Assembly (NCBI GenBank): GCA_018830105.1
Contig: JAHJTC010000004.1
Location: 186,001 to 250,000, forward strand
Reading direction: 5' to 3'
DNA from: Bacteroidota bacterium
Lineage (GTDB): Bacteria; Bacteroidota; Bacteroidia; Bacteroidales; F082
DNA length: 64,000 bases
Shown: positions 58,171-64,000 of the stretch, piece after piece
Layout of the letters: every line of letters starts with the position of its first letter
Position numbering within the stretch: the first letter of the stretch is position 1
The notes under the pieces: model-generated
Databases searched by the model: none
Seen by the model: the letters and a program-made list of their open reading frames with translations, nothing else
What the model was told of the DNA's origin: nothing
Made by a program: the position numbers and the translations under genes

Positions 58171-59451
58171 ATGCAAATAAGAACGATAACTTTTTTGCTT
58201 TTTACACTGTTTATTGCGTTGTCATGCAGCAAAGATGCTAAAAATCAGCGTCCTGTTGTTAATTTCATTAAGCCGTTAGGGGATGAGGCGCTTTTCAGCC
58301 GCGTAAAGGATACCGTTCTTTTTCGGGTAAGCGATGATCAATTGGTGAAGGCAGTAGGCATTAGTTTTGTGAATGAAGAATTGATTGCAATGAATCAGAC
58401 TGTTTGGTTTGATATTAATAGCAAAGATACTGTTATACAGTATATTATGAATCTGAATGGTGTTGATGTGGATAAAGGATATATTTTAGTTCGGGCAGAG
58501 GATGGCACCCATTCAAAATTGAAGTATCAGCCGGTTATTTTAAATGATGAACCATTGCCCATTGAGAAAATTGTGCATGGCTTCAGGCTGGAAAATGAAA
58601 CCAAAATCGGACTGTTTGAACCGGCTATTGGCATGAATACGGATTTGGGATCGATAGATTATTCACTCTCAACCATCACGGGCAACGGCGAAGATGAACT
58701 GCTGTTATGTTGGCCGGAGAATAGACGCTTTGTTGAAGTGTGGTCGGTAAATAGCTTCAAACCACTGTGGAGGCTAGAAGCAGCTTTTCCTCAGCCTGAG
58801 TATCATGATTTCTTTCTGCGAGCAGACAGATTACTGCTGGCCGACAGAAATGGCAACTTGCGATTACATCAATTTCATACAGGTAACGTGCTTATTAACG
58901 CGAATTTAGAGTCTTCAAAACTGATCAACGCCATTGCTTTTGATGAGCTGTACCTTTATGCTGCCGTTCAGGATTTGCAGACTTCAAAATATTGGTTGAT
59001 GTGCTTTTTTAGGGCCAGTGGCGTTTTTTACAAACGCTTTGAATTGGAGTTTAAAGCTATGGATATGCTGCCGCTCTTTAATAAAAATGGTGTCATGATT
59101 TTTGCAACCGATGCGCAGGAGACTACAAAGCTATTTCAATTTAATGCCACGTCCGAAATTATTGTGTTAGAGGAGGTGTTTCCTGATTTTGCATTTGTTC
59201 CTCCCGTAATTTCACAAAATGAGATGTTTTTTTTACAGAATCAGCGACAAATTATTGGCTGGTCCTCAGAAAGCCAGCAATCAAGAATTTTTGCTGAAGG
59301 CACTGATATCAAGGGAATGGTTAGTTCGCCCACGCTGATTGACCGCATTTATTATATCGACAATACTGCTATTTACCAAACTAATAACGCTGGTGTAGAG
59401 GTTTTTTTGTTTGATGAACCAGCGAATCTTATTGCATTGATTATTGAATGA
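58171..59451 (+). CDS. Lipoprotein with Ig-like and beta-propeller-like regions
   Basis: A 426-residue lipoprotein (FLLFTLFIALSC, lipid Cys19) from ATG 58171; an upstream ATG at 58117 would place the signal inside the chain. After the signal comes an Ig-like domain (about 25-125: RPVVNFIKPLGDEALFSRV, VDKGYILVRAEDGTHSK). A propeller-like C-terminal region with repeated W/F-rich strands follows (LLLCWPENRRFVEVWSVNSF, LYAAVQDLQ). No family was recognised. It overlaps mnmD by four bases (ATGA), indicating co-translation, though a functional link to tRNA modification seems unlikely. Confidence 0.7.
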   Translation: MQIRTITFLLFTLFIALSCSKDAKNQRPVVNFIKPLGDEALFSRVKDTVLFRVSDDQLVKAVGISFVNEELIAMNQTVWFDINSKDTVIQYIMNLNGVDVDKGYILVRAEDGTHSKLKYQPVILNDEPLPIEKIVHGFRLENETKIGLFEPAIGMNTDLGSIDYSLSTITGNGEDELLLCWPENRRFVEVWSVNSFKPLWRLEAAFPQPEYHDFFLRADRLLLADRNGNLRLHQFHTGNVLINANLESSKLINAIAFDELYLYAAVQDLQTSKYWLMCFFRASGVFYKRFELEFKAMDMLPLFNKNGVMIFATDAQETTKLFQFNATSEIIVLEEVFPDFAFVPPVISQNEMFFLQNQRQIIGWSSESQQSRIFAEGTDIKGMVSSPTLIDRIYYIDNTAIYQTNNAGVEVFLFDEPANLIALIIE

Positions 59452-60149
59452 AAGAGAAAAAATTTCAAGCTTTGGCAAATAGAAAACTGATTGTTACCGC
59501 CGATGGAAGCACAAGCATATTCGATGGGGCAACAGGAGAGAGCTTTCATTCAGTTAATGGAGCTTATACGGAATCAATGCTGGTTTTTATTGAAAATGGA
59601 CTTGAATTCAGGAAGCAGCAAGCGCCTTCAACCCAATACCGCATTTTGGAAATAGGGTTTGGAACAGGTTTAAATGCCTGGTTAAGTCTTAAAAAGGGGG
59701 AGGAATGGCAACAGTTAATTGACTACACGGCTATCGAAGCTTTTCCTTTGGAGATGGATTTAGCTACGAAATTAAATTTTATTCAAAATGCTGAGAATCA
59801 TAAGAATGATCAGTATTTTATGGCATTGCATACCTCGGTCTGGGGTGAAACTGTTCCCATTTCTACTTATTTTACATTGACAAAACTTCACCAGAATATC
59901 AGCGATTACCAAAATGAAGAAGGTAGCTTTGATGTAATTTATTTTGATGCCTTTAGTCCAAATGTACAACCGGAATTATGGACGGAAGAGATTTTTTTAA
60001 AGCTTTATCACAGCTTAAAAAGTGGTGGTGTTTTGGTGACTTACAGCGCGCGTGGCGATGTAAAAAATGCGTTAAGATCGGTAGGATTTATTGTAAAACG
60101 GCTTCCCGGCCCGCCCGGCAAAAGACATGTTATCAGGGTATTTCGCTAA
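59448..60149 (+). CDS. mnmD: tRNA 5-methylaminomethyl-2-thiouridine methyltransferase MnmD
   Basis: A 233-residue SAM-dependent methyltransferase that forms mnm5 from nm5 at U34 of several tRNAs. It has the SAM motif EIGFGTGLNAWL (residues 68-79), the acidic loop AIEAFPLEM, and VIYFDAFSPNVQPELWTEE with the DAFSP motif typical of MnmC1/MnmD. The end KRLPGPPGKRHVIRVFR matches the family. The MnmC2 oxidase domain is absent, as in stand-alone MnmD proteins of Bacteroidota and Firmicutes. It is translationally coupled to a lipoprotein gene by a four-base overlap. Confidence 0.92.
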   Translation: MKEKKFQALANRKLIVTADGSTSIFDGATGESFHSVNGAYTESMLVFIENGLEFRKQQAPSTQYRILEIGFGTGLNAWLSLKKGEEWQQLIDYTAIEAFPLEMDLATKLNFIQNAENHKNDQYFMALHTSVWGETVPISTYFTLTKLHQNISDYQNEEGSFDVIYFDAFSPNVQPELWTEEIFLKLYHSLKSGGVLVTYSARGDVKNALRSVGFIVKRLPGPPGKRHVIRVFR

Positions 60150-60537
60150 AATAATTGTAGGTTCTCTTTTTTTTTAAAAATTTCATACTTTAAAACAAAA
60201 ATTTCATTAATATTGTACCTTAATACATTTAGACAAATGCCTATTGGAATCCTCAGTCAGGTTTCTAAAGATAATAATAGTAGAATTAACTTCAATATTT
60301 CAGTGAGGGGTTTCTTGTTAGTAAGTTTTTTTTACTCACTTTCCCTAAACTTGCTTTTTTACACAAAATGTCAACCTTATTGCGATACCAAATATATTTT
60401 TAAAATTGGGAAGAATAAATTTGATATACATAGCCACTTCCGAAATGCAGGTTGGCGTGAAGTGGCGTTTTATAAATTAAGTACTATTAACTTGCACAAT
60501 TTTTAAAGTTTTAATATTTATTTCAAAATTTAAAAAC
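60150..60537 (+). other. AT-rich region before the cysteine-peptide gene, no supported gene
   Basis: A 388-base gap between mnmD and the small secreted peptide gene. It contains an open frame of 97 codons from a TTG at 60213, which I do not support. The rest is AT-rich sequence that may hold the promoter of the peptide gene. Confidence 0.6.
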
Positions 60538-60735
60538 ATGAAAAAAGGATTTATTTTTCTAGCTGTATTGGGCTTATTTATTTTCGCATCACCCAAAATT
60601 GCAGATGCAGCAGAGCAACCATGTCATACTGGAGTTTTGACTTGCCCTGATGGTTCAGAACATACTGTTTTCTATTGCGGAGCTGGAGACTGGTGGGCAT
60701 GGGCAGATATATTATGTGATGTACAAATTAGTTAA
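60538..60735 (+). CDS. Small secreted four-cysteine peptide
   Basis: A 65-residue preprotein with a clear signal peptide (FIFLAVLGLFIFASPKIADA). Cleavage after residue 24 would leave about 41 residues with four cysteines (29, 36, 47, 60) and a Gly-Asp-Trp-Trp-Ala-Trp cluster. The CxxxxxxCPDG start resembles other tiny Bacteroidota secreted peptides. It has its own strong terminator, about 100 bases before a GLPGLI-family gene and a TonB-dependent-receptor-like gene, so the three may work together, the latter two in export or uptake of the peptide. No bacteriocin immunity gene is visible. Confidence 0.7.
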   Translation: MKKGFIFLAVLGLFIFASPKIADAAEQPCHTGVLTCPDGSEHTVFYCGAGDWWAWADILCDVQIS

Positions 60736-60749
60736 AGTTTACATCAAAT

Positions 60750-60806
60750 AACTAACAAATGGACGGTGGTATTTTATCTGTCCGTTTGTTAGTTGCATTT
60801 TTTTCT
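60750..60806 (+). terminator. Terminator after the cysteine-peptide gene
   Basis: AACTAACAAATGGAC (60750-60764) pairs with GTCCGTTTGTTAGTT (60780-60794), 15 pairs including one G-U, and is followed by a T-rich tract. Confidence 0.8.
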
Positions 60807-60834
60807 TTTTCAAAGACTTCTTAAATAGAACAAG

Positions 60835-61695
60835 ATGTGTAATTTCATGAACAAATTAATGCTCGTTCGTTATATAGGTTTCCTGTTTCTATCTGTAATA
60901 TTTTCACCCTCATTTGCCCAGACCGTATTTCATTTTCCTAAAGAAAACATTGAATTAGTTGAACATATTGTGACCTATTCTTTGGAATTTCAGGAAGATT
61001 CTATGTATCAAAACTTTAAACGGCAAGAGGATATGCTGCTCTTTATTGGCCCAACGGTAAGCAGATTTGTAAGTTATAATTATTTTATAGGCGATAGCAT
61101 GGCACGCACGGCTACTTCACAAGAAGATTTTCAAAGAATAGCTTCTGACAAATCAAATCCTTTACCCGTTGTAAGGTTGCGCTATGAGATTTTCAAAAAC
61201 TTTCCGAAAGGCAAAGAAACATTTATTGATAATGTTTTAGGAAGTGGTATGTTTAAATTTGAGGAGGATCTTGGCCTATTCAAATGGGAATTGCTCAATG
61301 AAACTGCAACTATTTCCGGCTATAATGCCCAAAAAGCCACTACCGAATTTGGAGGTAGAAAATGGGTTGCCTGGTTTAGTACTGAGATACCGTATAACGA
61401 CGGACCCTATAAATTCAATGGTTTACCCGGGCTAATTGTTAAGATTTACGACACGCGCTTGCATTACGCATTCGAGTTAATATCCATTAAGAAACCTGGA
61501 TATGATCTTTTTATAGAGTTTCCGGAATTAGATTATATTGAGTGTTCAAAAAAAGAGTATTTCAGGGCAAAGGATGCCATGCGCGACAACATAATTACCC
61601 ATGCAAAAACAGCCGGTCTCAATAGCGAGGTTCAGCAGAAGGTTGCCAAATTGATGCAGCAACGTAACAATCCTATTGAATTAAGTAGGAAATAA
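60835..61695 (+). CDS. GLPGLI family protein
   Basis: A 286-residue exported protein (signal LFLSVIFSPSFAQ) of the GLPGLI family, named for its motif, which appears here as YKFNGLPGLIVKIYD. Other family features are EVAWFST-type WVAWFSTEIPYNDGPY and the C-terminal charged region. The function of the family is not established; members usually precede or follow outer-membrane receptor-like genes in Bacteroidota. It lies directly before the receptor-like gene (11 bases between stop and ATG) and after the cysteine peptide. Confidence 0.88.
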   Translation: MCNFMNKLMLVRYIGFLFLSVIFSPSFAQTVFHFPKENIELVEHIVTYSLEFQEDSMYQNFKRQEDMLLFIGPTVSRFVSYNYFIGDSMARTATSQEDFQRIASDKSNPLPVVRLRYEIFKNFPKGKETFIDNVLGSGMFKFEEDLGLFKWELLNETATISGYNAQKATTEFGGRKWVAWFSTEIPYNDGPYKFNGLPGLIVKIYDTRLHYAFELISIKKPGYDLFIEFPELDYIECSKKEYFRAKDAMRDNIITHAKTAGLNSEVQQKVAKLMQQRNNPIELSRK

Positions 61696-61706
61696 TTAGT
61701 GAATGA

Positions 61707-64000
61707 ATGAGATCATTCTTTCTATTTTTCGTTTTTTATTTTTTATTAAATAACATTTTCGGTCAAATTATACTGAGCGGGAAAATTATAAACAGCCATG
61801 AAGAATCCATACCATATATCAATATTCTGATTTATGAATTGGATGAATCAGTTGTGATTGGTTTTGGAGTTTCCGACTTGGATGGGCAGTTTTCAATTGA
61901 ACTAACCACTAGTGCAGACAGTTTGCGCATAGAAACCAGTGCCATACATTACAAAAAGGAAACACAAGAAATCGCCAATCACACACAGGAAATACCTTTT
62001 GTTTTAGAAGTTGACGAAAAAACCCTAGAAACATTTACTTTAAGGGCTTCTCCAATCTTACGTAGAGGAGATACTTTGAGCTTTTTGGTAGATGCATTTA
62101 CAGCAAAAAATGACCGATCAATTGCTGAAGTTTTGCGCAGAATGCCGGGCATTGAAGTTGAAACAAACGGTCAAATACTATATCAGGGACTACCAATACA
62201 GAAATTTTATATCGAAGGTCTCGATCTGATGGATGGGCGTTATGCGATGGTAAGCAATAATTTACCGCATCAATCGGTGGCCACAATTGAAGTATATGAA
62301 AATCATCAACCTATTCGAATTCTTGAAGAAAAAGTAGCTTCACAACAGGCATCACTGAATTTAAAGTTAAAGCAGGATGTTACCACCACCGGAAAAGGAA
62401 GTTTAGGGACTGGCTTCACGCCCTTTGTATGGGATGTAAATATTACACCAATGACCTTTACACGTAAGTTACAATTTGTTGCATCCTATCAAACAAATAA
62501 TATCGGGAAAGACGCATCAAAACAGCTTACAAGTCACTTGCCTGATGAGTTCCGAAAAAGCCGAAATCATCCGGACGAAACACCTGAGTTGTTAATTATT
62601 CAAACATTGAATCCTCCTTATGATTTTGACCCTACACTATACCTGAACAATAATATCCATTTATTAAATCTCAATACACTCACAAAGTTGAACAACAATT
62701 TGCAGCTGCGTTCAAATTTGCACTTTATCACTGATTTTCAACAAGAGCGAGCCAGTGCTTCCCATACAATATTTACACCTGAAGACACGGTTACTTTTAA
62801 CGAAAACTTTAATAATGAGTACACTAGCAACTATTTACAAGCTGTTTTTACATTAAGCAGAAATGTGAAGTCGAATTTTTTGGAAAATAAACTAAGTTTT
62901 AAATCAAACTGGAATAGTAGTTTTGGGTTGTTGAGCAATAATAGTGAACAAATCTCTCAAAAACTTAAATCACCGGCGAAAAGTATTTCAAACGATTTGC
63001 ACTCAATTTATCCTCTTGGCAAAAAGCTCATTGAGATTAGGTCATATATTTCTTATGACGAAAACCTGCATCAACTTCAAATCAGTCCCGGGGTTTTCCC
63101 CAACATCTTAAATGATGAAATTGCTTACGAAAACAGCCTTCAGGACGTTGAATTGAACAGGTTTTTTACAGAAAATTCTATCGGAATGGTTTACACATTT
63201 AAAGGCATTGTTATTAGTCCAAAGGCTGGTTTTATAATAAGACAACAAACACTGCAATCAATAATACGGGTTGATGACTTACAAGTATCCTCAGTTTTTG
63301 AAAATGATCAAAATATCTTTAATTCACAAGCCTATTTGCAAACTGAAATAGAATACCAAAAAAAAGCGCTTACCATCATTTTTAATTTGCCGCTAATATA
63401 TCAAACCTTGACAATCGATGATCAAATCAACAACCTGGGTCAGGATTTAAACCGTGCTTTTTTAAAACCTCGTCTTTTTGTCAATTACAAATTAAAAGGC
63501 TTTTGGGAAGCCTCAGCTTCATGGAGCTATTCAAACAGTTTTGGAGATTTGGATGGAGTTAATTATGGTTTTCTCCTCAGATCATATCGAAATTTAAGTC
63601 AAAATAATGCACCTATCGCTATCAATTCAAAAAACAATTTAGGCGTTCAATTGAAGTATTCAAACGCGATTATATCTTTCTTCCATTCATCGAGTTTCTT
63701 ATACGTCAAATTGCGAAGTAATCTATTCTATAACAGCTTAATTAATGAGTTTGGAGCTTCAGTAATTAAGGCAGTTGAGTATCCAAATCAGGGGCAATAT
63801 TTCAGTTTTCAAGCAAATACAAGTAAATATTATTCAGCTATACGCTCGACATTTAGTTTACGTTTGGGTGCAAGCCAACAGGAAGGAATGGTTTTGATGA
63901 ATACTGAAATCTTTAATGCCATCAATCGCTTTTATCAATTTAGTCCTCATGTTTTATACCACTTTAGAAATTGGTTCAACATTGATTATGGTTTGAATTT
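61707..64000 (+). CDS. TonB-dependent-receptor-like outer-membrane protein with carboxypeptidase-regulatory domain, 3' end outside window
   Basis: From ATG 61707 the frame stays open to the window end (764 codons visible). After a signal peptide (FVFYFLLNNIFG), a carboxypeptidase-regulatory-like domain (about 19-110: ILSGKIINSHEESIPYINIL, GVSDLDGQFSIEL) is followed by a TonB plug-like part (RSIAEVLRRMPGIEVETNGQ, LPIQKFYIEGLDLMDGRYAMV) and a long beta-barrel region. These features are those of the CarboxypepD-reg/TonB-receptor proteins that accompany GLPGLI genes. It starts 11 bases after the GLPGLI stop. Ligand unknown; peptide uptake or export is a hypothesis. Confidence 0.85.
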   Translation, partial: MRSFFLFFVFYFLLNNIFGQIILSGKIINSHEESIPYINILIYELDESVVIGFGVSDLDGQFSIELTTSADSLRIETSAIHYKKETQEIANHTQEIPFVLEVDEKTLETFTLRASPILRRGDTLSFLVDAFTAKNDRSIAEVLRRMPGIEVETNGQILYQGLPIQKFYIEGLDLMDGRYAMVSNNLPHQSVATIEVYENHQPIRILEEKVASQQASLNLKLKQDVTTTGKGSLGTGFTPFVWDVNITPMTFTRKLQFVASYQTNNIGKDASKQLTSHLPDEFRKSRNHPDETPELLIIQTLNPPYDFDPTLYLNNNIHLLNLNTLTKLNNNLQLRSNLHFITDFQQERASASHTIFTPEDTVTFNENFNNEYTSNYLQAVFTLSRNVKSNFLENKLSFKSNWNSSFGLLSNNSEQISQKLKSPAKSISNDLHSIYPLGKKLIEIRSYISYDENLHQLQISPGVFPNILNDEIAYENSLQDVELNRFFTENSIGMVYTFKGIVISPKAGFIIRQQTLQSIIRVDDLQVSSVFENDQNIFNSQAYLQTEIEYQKKALTIIFNLPLIYQTLTIDDQINNLGQDLNRAFLKPRLFVNYKLKGFWEASASWSYSNSFGDLDGVNYGFLLRSYRNLSQNNAPIAINSKNNLGVQLKYSNAIISFFHSSSFLYVKLRSNLFYNSLINEFGASVIKAVEYPNQGQYFSFQANTSKYYSAIRSTFSLRLGASQQEGMVLMNTEIFNAINRFYQFSPHVLYHFRNWFNIDYGLN

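Follow-up and report, generated by a model that had tools for sequence, protein, structure and literature searches.

The final 3.8 kb of a 64,000-nucleotide stretch of the Bacteroidales genome assembly GCA_018830105.1 (contig JAHJTC010000004.1; the whole stretch is called the window here) encodes, all on the + strand, a leader open reading frame (ORF), a peptide of 65 amino acids (aa), a GLPGLI family protein and the first 764 codons of a receptor-like protein. The probability is close to even that these genes form a secreted-peptide cassette, made up of peptide, GLPGLI protein and receptor-like barrel, under a leader of the attenuation type. Its parts have known counterparts in exported peptides with outer-membrane partners and in leader attenuation. 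An earlier description of positions 60538-64000, here the original prediction, had placed a 65-residue four-cysteine preprotein before a GLPGLI gene. Its coordinates and description were right. The neighbouring ORF (60835-61695) scores 183 bits with TIGR01200 (cut-off 50), and homologues share the linkage. The leader lies 5' of that interval and had been missed. The features are:

60237..60506, + strand: leader ORF, 89 aa from an ATG, which holds the conserved motif and reads through the leader hairpin; start codon not proven (frame conservation, dN/dS)
60390..60425, + strand: conserved leader motif, KYIFKIGKNKFD
60433..60466, + strand: leader hairpin, GCCACTTC...GAAGTGGC, then GTTTTATAA (inverted repeat in the window; 65 copies compared)
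60538..60735, + strand: four-cysteine exported peptide precursor, 65 aa; mature part about 40 aa, net charge about -6
60749..60795, + strand: intergenic hairpin between the peptide and GLPGLI genes, 18 bp with G-U pairs, plus T-run (inverted repeat, shuffles)
60835..61695, + strand: GLPGLI family protein, 286 aa (TIGR01200, structure model)
61707..64000, + strand: TonB-receptor-like protein, interrupted by the window end; its full 874 aa extend to contig C31:250331 (Pfam sub-threshold)

The peptide begins with a hydrophobic N-terminus of the Sec type, as judged by eye without a signal-peptide program, and carries cysteines at C29, C36, C47 and C60 as well as a WWAW patch. Its AlphaFold model consists of a beta hairpin (residues 30-35 and 41-46) and a helix (49-60), with a mean predicted local distance difference test score (pLDDT) of 93-94 over residues 31-60. 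Comparison of the model with the PDB gave no Foldseek match at E<=0.001 and a best fold match (VIA) at Z 2.2, and by sequence no PDB relative was convincing (best E 0.34). A single NCBIfam model matched, far below its cut-off and over the signal peptide, with no model for precursors of ribosomally synthesized and post-translationally modified peptides (RiPPs) among the matches. The NVEALA peptides of Bacteroides/Bacteroidales are small exported Cys peptides too; the window peptide matched no Pfam family.

The cassette recurs in other genomes. A search of 198 genomes, the window's own included, returned 22 peptide matches at E<=0.01, and in 19 of these a GLPGLI gene lies immediately 3' on the same strand; the remaining three are copies at contig ends in G031 and G005 (its second copy) and a spurious match in G141. 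A 21-member profile run against 393 genomes of the order, which had matches in 65 of them at E<=0.01, added six members in six other families when members were counted down to E 1.2e-7, and all six adjoin a GLPGLI gene. Weaker listed matches, which mostly covered the signal peptide alone, were dropped, and the two of them that were inspected (L104 and L105) had no GLPGLI gene. One more four-Cys peptide stands ahead of GLPGLI in G142. The ratio of nonsynonymous to synonymous change (dN/dS) is 0.21-0.42 in six of seven computable peptide pairs and 0.82 in the closest pair, where changes are few; selection on the homologues is mostly purifying. GLPGLI genes are rare in the window's genome, with four matches only, and its two peptide cassettes take up three of these. 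Because the peptide has homologues of this kind and is linked to GLPGLI despite so few GLPGLI matches in the genome, it is more than a chance ORF, a possibility that the homologues and the linkage rule out. The recurrence of the linkage in 19 of 22 matches and 6 of 6 members of other families means that a functional link between peptide and GLPGLI is well founded. The original prediction had staked itself on peptide genes occurring beside other GLPGLI loci, as these do; of its proposal that the peptide may be the cargo or signal of the pair, the functional link holds, and the peptide may be cargo, signal or metal carrier.

In the genomes sampled, the four-cysteine peptide family is confined to the window's order, Bacteroidales; among 395 sampled genomes of the phylum (a sample, not proof), the profile matched the window's own genome alone at E<=1e-5. 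A phage or plasmid origin was dropped, as tblastn with the peptide found no match in collections of either. Two cassettes have decayed: in one (L059, in G060) the peptide gene contains a stop, and in the other (L054, in G001) the leader frame contains a stop and the peptide frame is shifted. At two other loci (L195 in G475 and L199 in G142), a small gene resembling a helix-turn-helix regulator lies 5' of the peptide gene and has a homopolymer tract near its 3' end, which is perhaps another switch for the cassette; the L195 gene matched no family over cut-off.

M1, K2, C29, C47, C60 and D51 are invariant in the 21-member alignment, and none of the 28 listed members has fewer than four cysteines. 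The Trp-rich patch that had been singled out earlier is present in the window peptide, and WW occurs in 4 of the 28 listed mature peptides, so the patch is a mark of one subgroup and not of the family. With the mature start set by rule, 28 of 28 listed mature parts are negative (net -1 to -12, mean -6.5). Such acidic Cys/His/Asp peptides could conceivably be released and bind a metal or cofactor for reimport by the receptor, with the GLPGLI protein as periplasmic acceptor; methanobactin with MbnT is an analogue. This metallophore or nutrient-scavenging role would draw on the uniform charge, on the conserved cysteines and on a receptor-like barrel and a LolA-like protein sharing one operon with the peptide, yet it is unlikely, given that His is not conserved among the members, that four cysteines suit two disulfides just as well, and that the other targets of the leader (see below) are RiPP precursors and exported proteins, with no metal genes recognised among them and most of them unscanned.

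Another conserved component is the spacer between the peptide and GLPGLI genes. In the window it holds an inverted repeat (60750-60764/60780-60794, 15 nt, 93% complementary) and then a T-run; shuffling the 99-nt gap 60 times never gave so high a stem score. A stem of 10-18 bp is present at this place in 24 of 26 cassettes, and its score was attained by at most one of 60 shuffles in 24 of the 25 gaps of testable length. The original prediction had given the peptide gene its own terminator; the conserved hairpin bears this out, whereas the T-run is found in some cassettes only and a simple terminator scan did not list the window's repeat. Where an intergenic hairpin of this kind stands, the product encoded before it is usually abundant and the one encoded after it scarcer. 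Its conservation here fits surplus production of the peptide, as a cargo role would predict, and the peptide is probably made in excess.

This probable excess bears on a further alternative, in which the peptide is never released and acts as a small subunit of the receptor complex, delivered by the GLPGLI protein in the periplasm. The strict linkage is what such a subunit would be expected to show, and across 20 cassettes peptide and GLPGLI distances are correlated (Mantel r 0.77, 0 of 5000 permutations, the species tree not being corrected for), which speaks for the proposed cassette as a whole as well; protease and export genes are also absent from the cassettes as read. Against it stand the probable excess of the peptide and, in G166, a TIGR04149 RiPP precursor that occupies the peptide's slot ahead of tandem GLPGLI genes; this alternative is judged improbable.

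The second cassette gene is a clear member of the GLPGLI family (TIGR01200, Pfam Porph_ging), and the signature itself, G196-I201, is invariant across 31 aligned members. No assigned function was found for the family in Pfam, NCBIfam or the accessible parts of the literature searched, and the available portions of two papers that name it (PMC9603813, PMC8757827) mention neither a function nor a peptide partner. The predicted structure (pLDDT 88.9, predicted template modelling score 0.81) is most like the N-terminal domain of PNGase F-II (PNGF-II; Z 14.8, 174 aligned residues, root-mean-square deviation (rmsd) 3.5), followed by LolA 2w7q (Z 8.5, 139 aligned, rmsd 3.7) and Porphyromonas gingivalis LolA 8cgm (Z 7.8), most matches to LolA, LolB and RseB-type proteins scoring Z 6-9. 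The predicted fold resembles that of the PNGase F-II domain and, less surely, may resemble that of the LolA and LolB carriers; the protein has no glycanase catalytic domain. By sequence, the profile match of PNGF-II to GLPGLI is weak (E 0.012), and Pfam PNGase_F-II_N falls under its cut-off. From the linkage and the predicted fold, we infer that the GLPGLI protein may be a carrier or chaperone for the peptide.

Two observations on GLPGLI weigh against the cassette reading. The LolA-type scores of Z 7-9 are close to the background of which the tool warns, so that the PNGF-II match alone stands out, and it is common for a GLPGLI gene to have no such peptide beside it. TIGR01200 was over cut-off in 14 of 60 genomes scanned for GLPGLI; setting the window's aside, 7 of the 13 positive genomes had not already been counted as cassette genomes, and on inspection these held a four-Cys peptide (one), a RiPP precursor (one), neither (four) or no callable ORF (one). 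Peptide linkage is not a rule for GLPGLI genes. Some cassettes carry a tandem pair of them, and at another locus (L201, G177:C5:138000-151000) at least six are arrayed with a receptor-like gene, with no peptide found 5'.

The third gene begins at 61707. Of 20 cassettes read in detail, 18 have a receptor-like ORF of 600 aa or more at this place, the other two having a 244-codon frame and a contig end, and receptor-like genes of about 860-890 aa occur there in several families of the order. The original prediction of a TonB-type receptor is therefore sound as to a receptor-like ORF being there, and less so as to type: CarboxypepD_reg and Plug matches lie below the Pfam gathering scores (Plug, PF07715, 14.3 bits against 23.9), which is why the protein is called receptor-like here. 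Among six cassette receptors, four match CarboxypepD_reg and four match Plug at E<=1, the lowest values being E 0.0023 for the former and 0.056 for the latter. With the protein under the Pfam cut-offs and without a PDB relative by sequence, any TonB dependence is putative.

Taken together, the cassette might work as follows. The peptide would leave through Sec and form two disulfides, and its surplus would arise where the intergenic hairpin protects or ends a short mRNA. In the periplasm, the GLPGLI protein would hold the peptide by means of a LolA-like groove, and its release, recapture or sensing would fall to the outer-membrane barrel. Outside the cell, the peptide would act most likely toward other bacteria, as RiPPs under the same leader may.

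That leader was found by aligning the 5' regions of 20 peptide genes, in 19 of which (all but L022) a 40-nt element and a hairpin align. A pattern search gave 66 matches in 33 of the 198 genomes, against 0 for a reversed-pattern control; reading by eye placed one (L067) inside a different coding gene, and its removal left 65 copies. The element is the terminal part of an open frame, ..CTTKYIFWLGKNKFD (60 distinct translations), whose C-terminal end, ..KYIFxLGKNKFD, is followed by the hairpin, and a poly-C tract of C6-C15 precedes the motif in 38 of the 66 matches. Since the pattern favours third-position changes inside the motif only, the stretch upstream of it is a fair test of frame. There, 35 of 38 poly-C copies keep the motif frame free of stops between tract and motif, against 9 and 3 for the other two frames (some copies being near-duplicates), which makes it very probable that the leader is translated. 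Leader dN/dS is 0.11-0.70 among computable pairs, many pairs being saturated, and 0.52 between the window leader and its orthologue in G005, of the same genus; selection acts on the leader's reading frame. Distant peptide genes are preceded, as read by eye, by shortened leaders, namely MRQLSKIGKNKFIG, MKTIWMLGKNRFIL and MFQIGKNFFL, each ending in a stop codon. The conserved C-terminus suggests that the nascent chain itself may matter too.

The start of translation counts against this reading. In 25 poly-C copies, 27 ATG frames enter the tract, of which 11 share the motif frame, 10 fall short of it by one C and 6 exceed it by one C; 3 copies have no ATG-started frame into the tract at all. These figures are near the one-third chance level, and an ATG 5' of the tract is unsupported. 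Many copies also lack a nearby in-frame ATG. A leader that is merely a conserved promoter or RNA element, untranslated, would account for this chance placement and for the fixed position of the hairpin, and is nonetheless very unlikely in view of the open motif frame, the bias of changes toward synonymous ones, the short ORFs before distant peptide genes and the Rfam scan of the window's 60140-60840 (this stretch alone and no other leader copies), in which all six matches fell below gathering scores and a known RNA was set aside. In genus g14, a TTTG/TATATTTG pair lies 5' of the leader and is promoter-like by comparison with the consensus. A -1 frameshift was dropped as well, no conserved slippery heptamer being seen by eye. 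Farther afield, a leader profile matched 15 of 295 genomes of the order at E<=0.001; of 23 such loci read, 7 lack the motif and 16 show it, those with poly-C being in f49, f51 and f6.

If translated, the leader could regulate the genes behind it in two ways. Firstly, a ribosome at its GKNKFD end would run into the hairpin within a few nucleotides, with a change in how the following gene is expressed. The minimum free energy z-score of the hairpin is below -2 in 41 of 65 copies, and the best stem, varied in sequence, begins 4-9 nt past the Asp codon (34-39 nt from the element start) in 50 of them. Several facts speak against so simple a picture: the best stem is elsewhere in 15 of the 65 and z is above -2 in 24, the window's leader ORF continues through its hairpin, and a U-run is often missing after the hairpin, for which reason transcription termination at the leader is not general.

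Secondly, in copies with a poly-C tract, gain or loss of a C would change which upstream ATG reads into the motif, so that the operon could switch. Tracts one C apart are found in the two copies of G004 (9 and 8 C; L052) and in the near-identical L063 and L053 (9 and 8 C), where the change alters which of two ATGs reads in frame, the second being in frame in L053 where the first is not. Such one-C differences between near-identical copies support slippage. On the other side, the window leader has no poly-C, as is true of 28 of the 66 pattern matches, and with no tract the window copy would not switch by slippage. Poly-C as a leader-only feature was rejected: the window's genome has eight sites of C8 or more, five of which are not leader copies, and the three that are include its sole C9 and sole C10. 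Across seven genomes of the genus, a strict leader element follows 8 of 26 tracts of at least C9; among the other 18 (in 17 regions), a diverged GKN[NR]F leader is seen at 4, and the remaining 14 were not shown to be leaders.

The shared leader stands before genes of several kinds. Of its 65 copies, read by eye, 14 precede four-Cys cassettes (one decayed) and about 10 precede precursors of GG or lanthipeptide type, one of them deduced from its maturase; most of the others precede Sec- or lipoprotein-type ORFs, and a few have no clear ORF. Two own-genome leader copies on C10 go with a grasp-with-spasm maturase (TIGR04192) and a radical SAM maturase (TIGR04148), both over the NCBIfam cut-off, and a class I lanthipeptide leader is over cut-off at L189 and slightly under at L190. 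RiPP precursors behind the same leader lend support to the secreted-peptide system of the original prediction, and they are equally what a classical bacteriocin cassette would lead one to expect, in which the peptide would kill relatives and the GLPGLI or receptor-like protein would provide immunity or export. The faster evolution of the peptide relative to GLPGLI agrees with such a role, which remains somewhat unlikely, as the uniformly anionic mature peptides are unlike cationic membrane-active ones and a C39 exporter or other extra gene is absent from the cassettes as read.

The RiPP island in question (L182, C10:134000-146000 of the window's genome) holds these two leader copies, with C9 and C10 tracts. 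Its two Cys-rich GG precursors resemble each other, and a 419-aa protein comes after each of them. The island also encodes the TIGR04148 radical SAM maturase, a grasp-with-spasm ATP-grasp and, below cut-off, a pseudo-rSAM protein, with a short C39-peptidase-like fragment in between (by eye). Four other leader copies (L068, L071, L072 and L186) lie ahead of an exported-protein family of about 175-180 aa, with a second exported ORF next in three.

Among known systems, the RiPP precursors of Bacteroidota (TIGR04149, class I lanthipeptide leader NF038153, grasp-with-spasm) have the leader module in common with the window peptide, which differs from them in its Sec-type N-terminus and in having no precursor-family match; its cassette has no maturase, GLPGLI and receptor-like genes following instead (farther genes being read as ORFs, not scanned). 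A parallel for the leader is the pil1 pilus of Streptococcus gallolyticus, which, in the available part of its description, is governed by phase-variable leader-peptide attenuation (PMC3894217). There, and probably in the tract-bearing copies here, a leader ORF with variable repeat length lies 5' of a hairpin with exported products downstream. The pil1 repeats are GCAGA and not poly-C, and the phylum differs; unlike pil1 as described in that text, the Bacteroidales leader has a conserved C-terminus and is reused before many operons, and its window copy is tractless. The LolA-like export cluster of Borrelia, from what is accessible of its report (PMC13078400), is an analogy only. The literature searched held nothing on the peptide family, its GLPGLI linkage or the leader, and the same was true of Pfam, NCBIfam and Rfam.

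More tentatively, it is possible, though less likely than not, that the IFxLGKNKFD leaders (10-14 residues in some distant cases) are a new class of regulatory nascent peptide that stalls or times the ribosome before a hairpin and so gates exported four-Cys peptides, RiPPs and lipoproteins, with poly-C switching operons randomly and the four-Cys peptide, GLPGLI protein and barrel forming a dedicated route of peptide delivery or recapture. Such a route, if true, would be the first function for the GLPGLI family; with an exported peptide so strictly linked to them, a role for these proteins can be tested directly. The leader would likewise tie together otherwise unrelated exported-peptide operons, RiPP clusters included, through a mechanism that reporters can test. 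In Bacteroidales genomes, the GKNKF leader with its hairpin, and often poly-C, offers a search handle for unannotated exported peptides.

Directly 5' of the window's cassette, positions 59448-60146 encode an MnmC2-type tRNA methyltransferase (NF033855, 182 bits) that is apparently unrelated to it.

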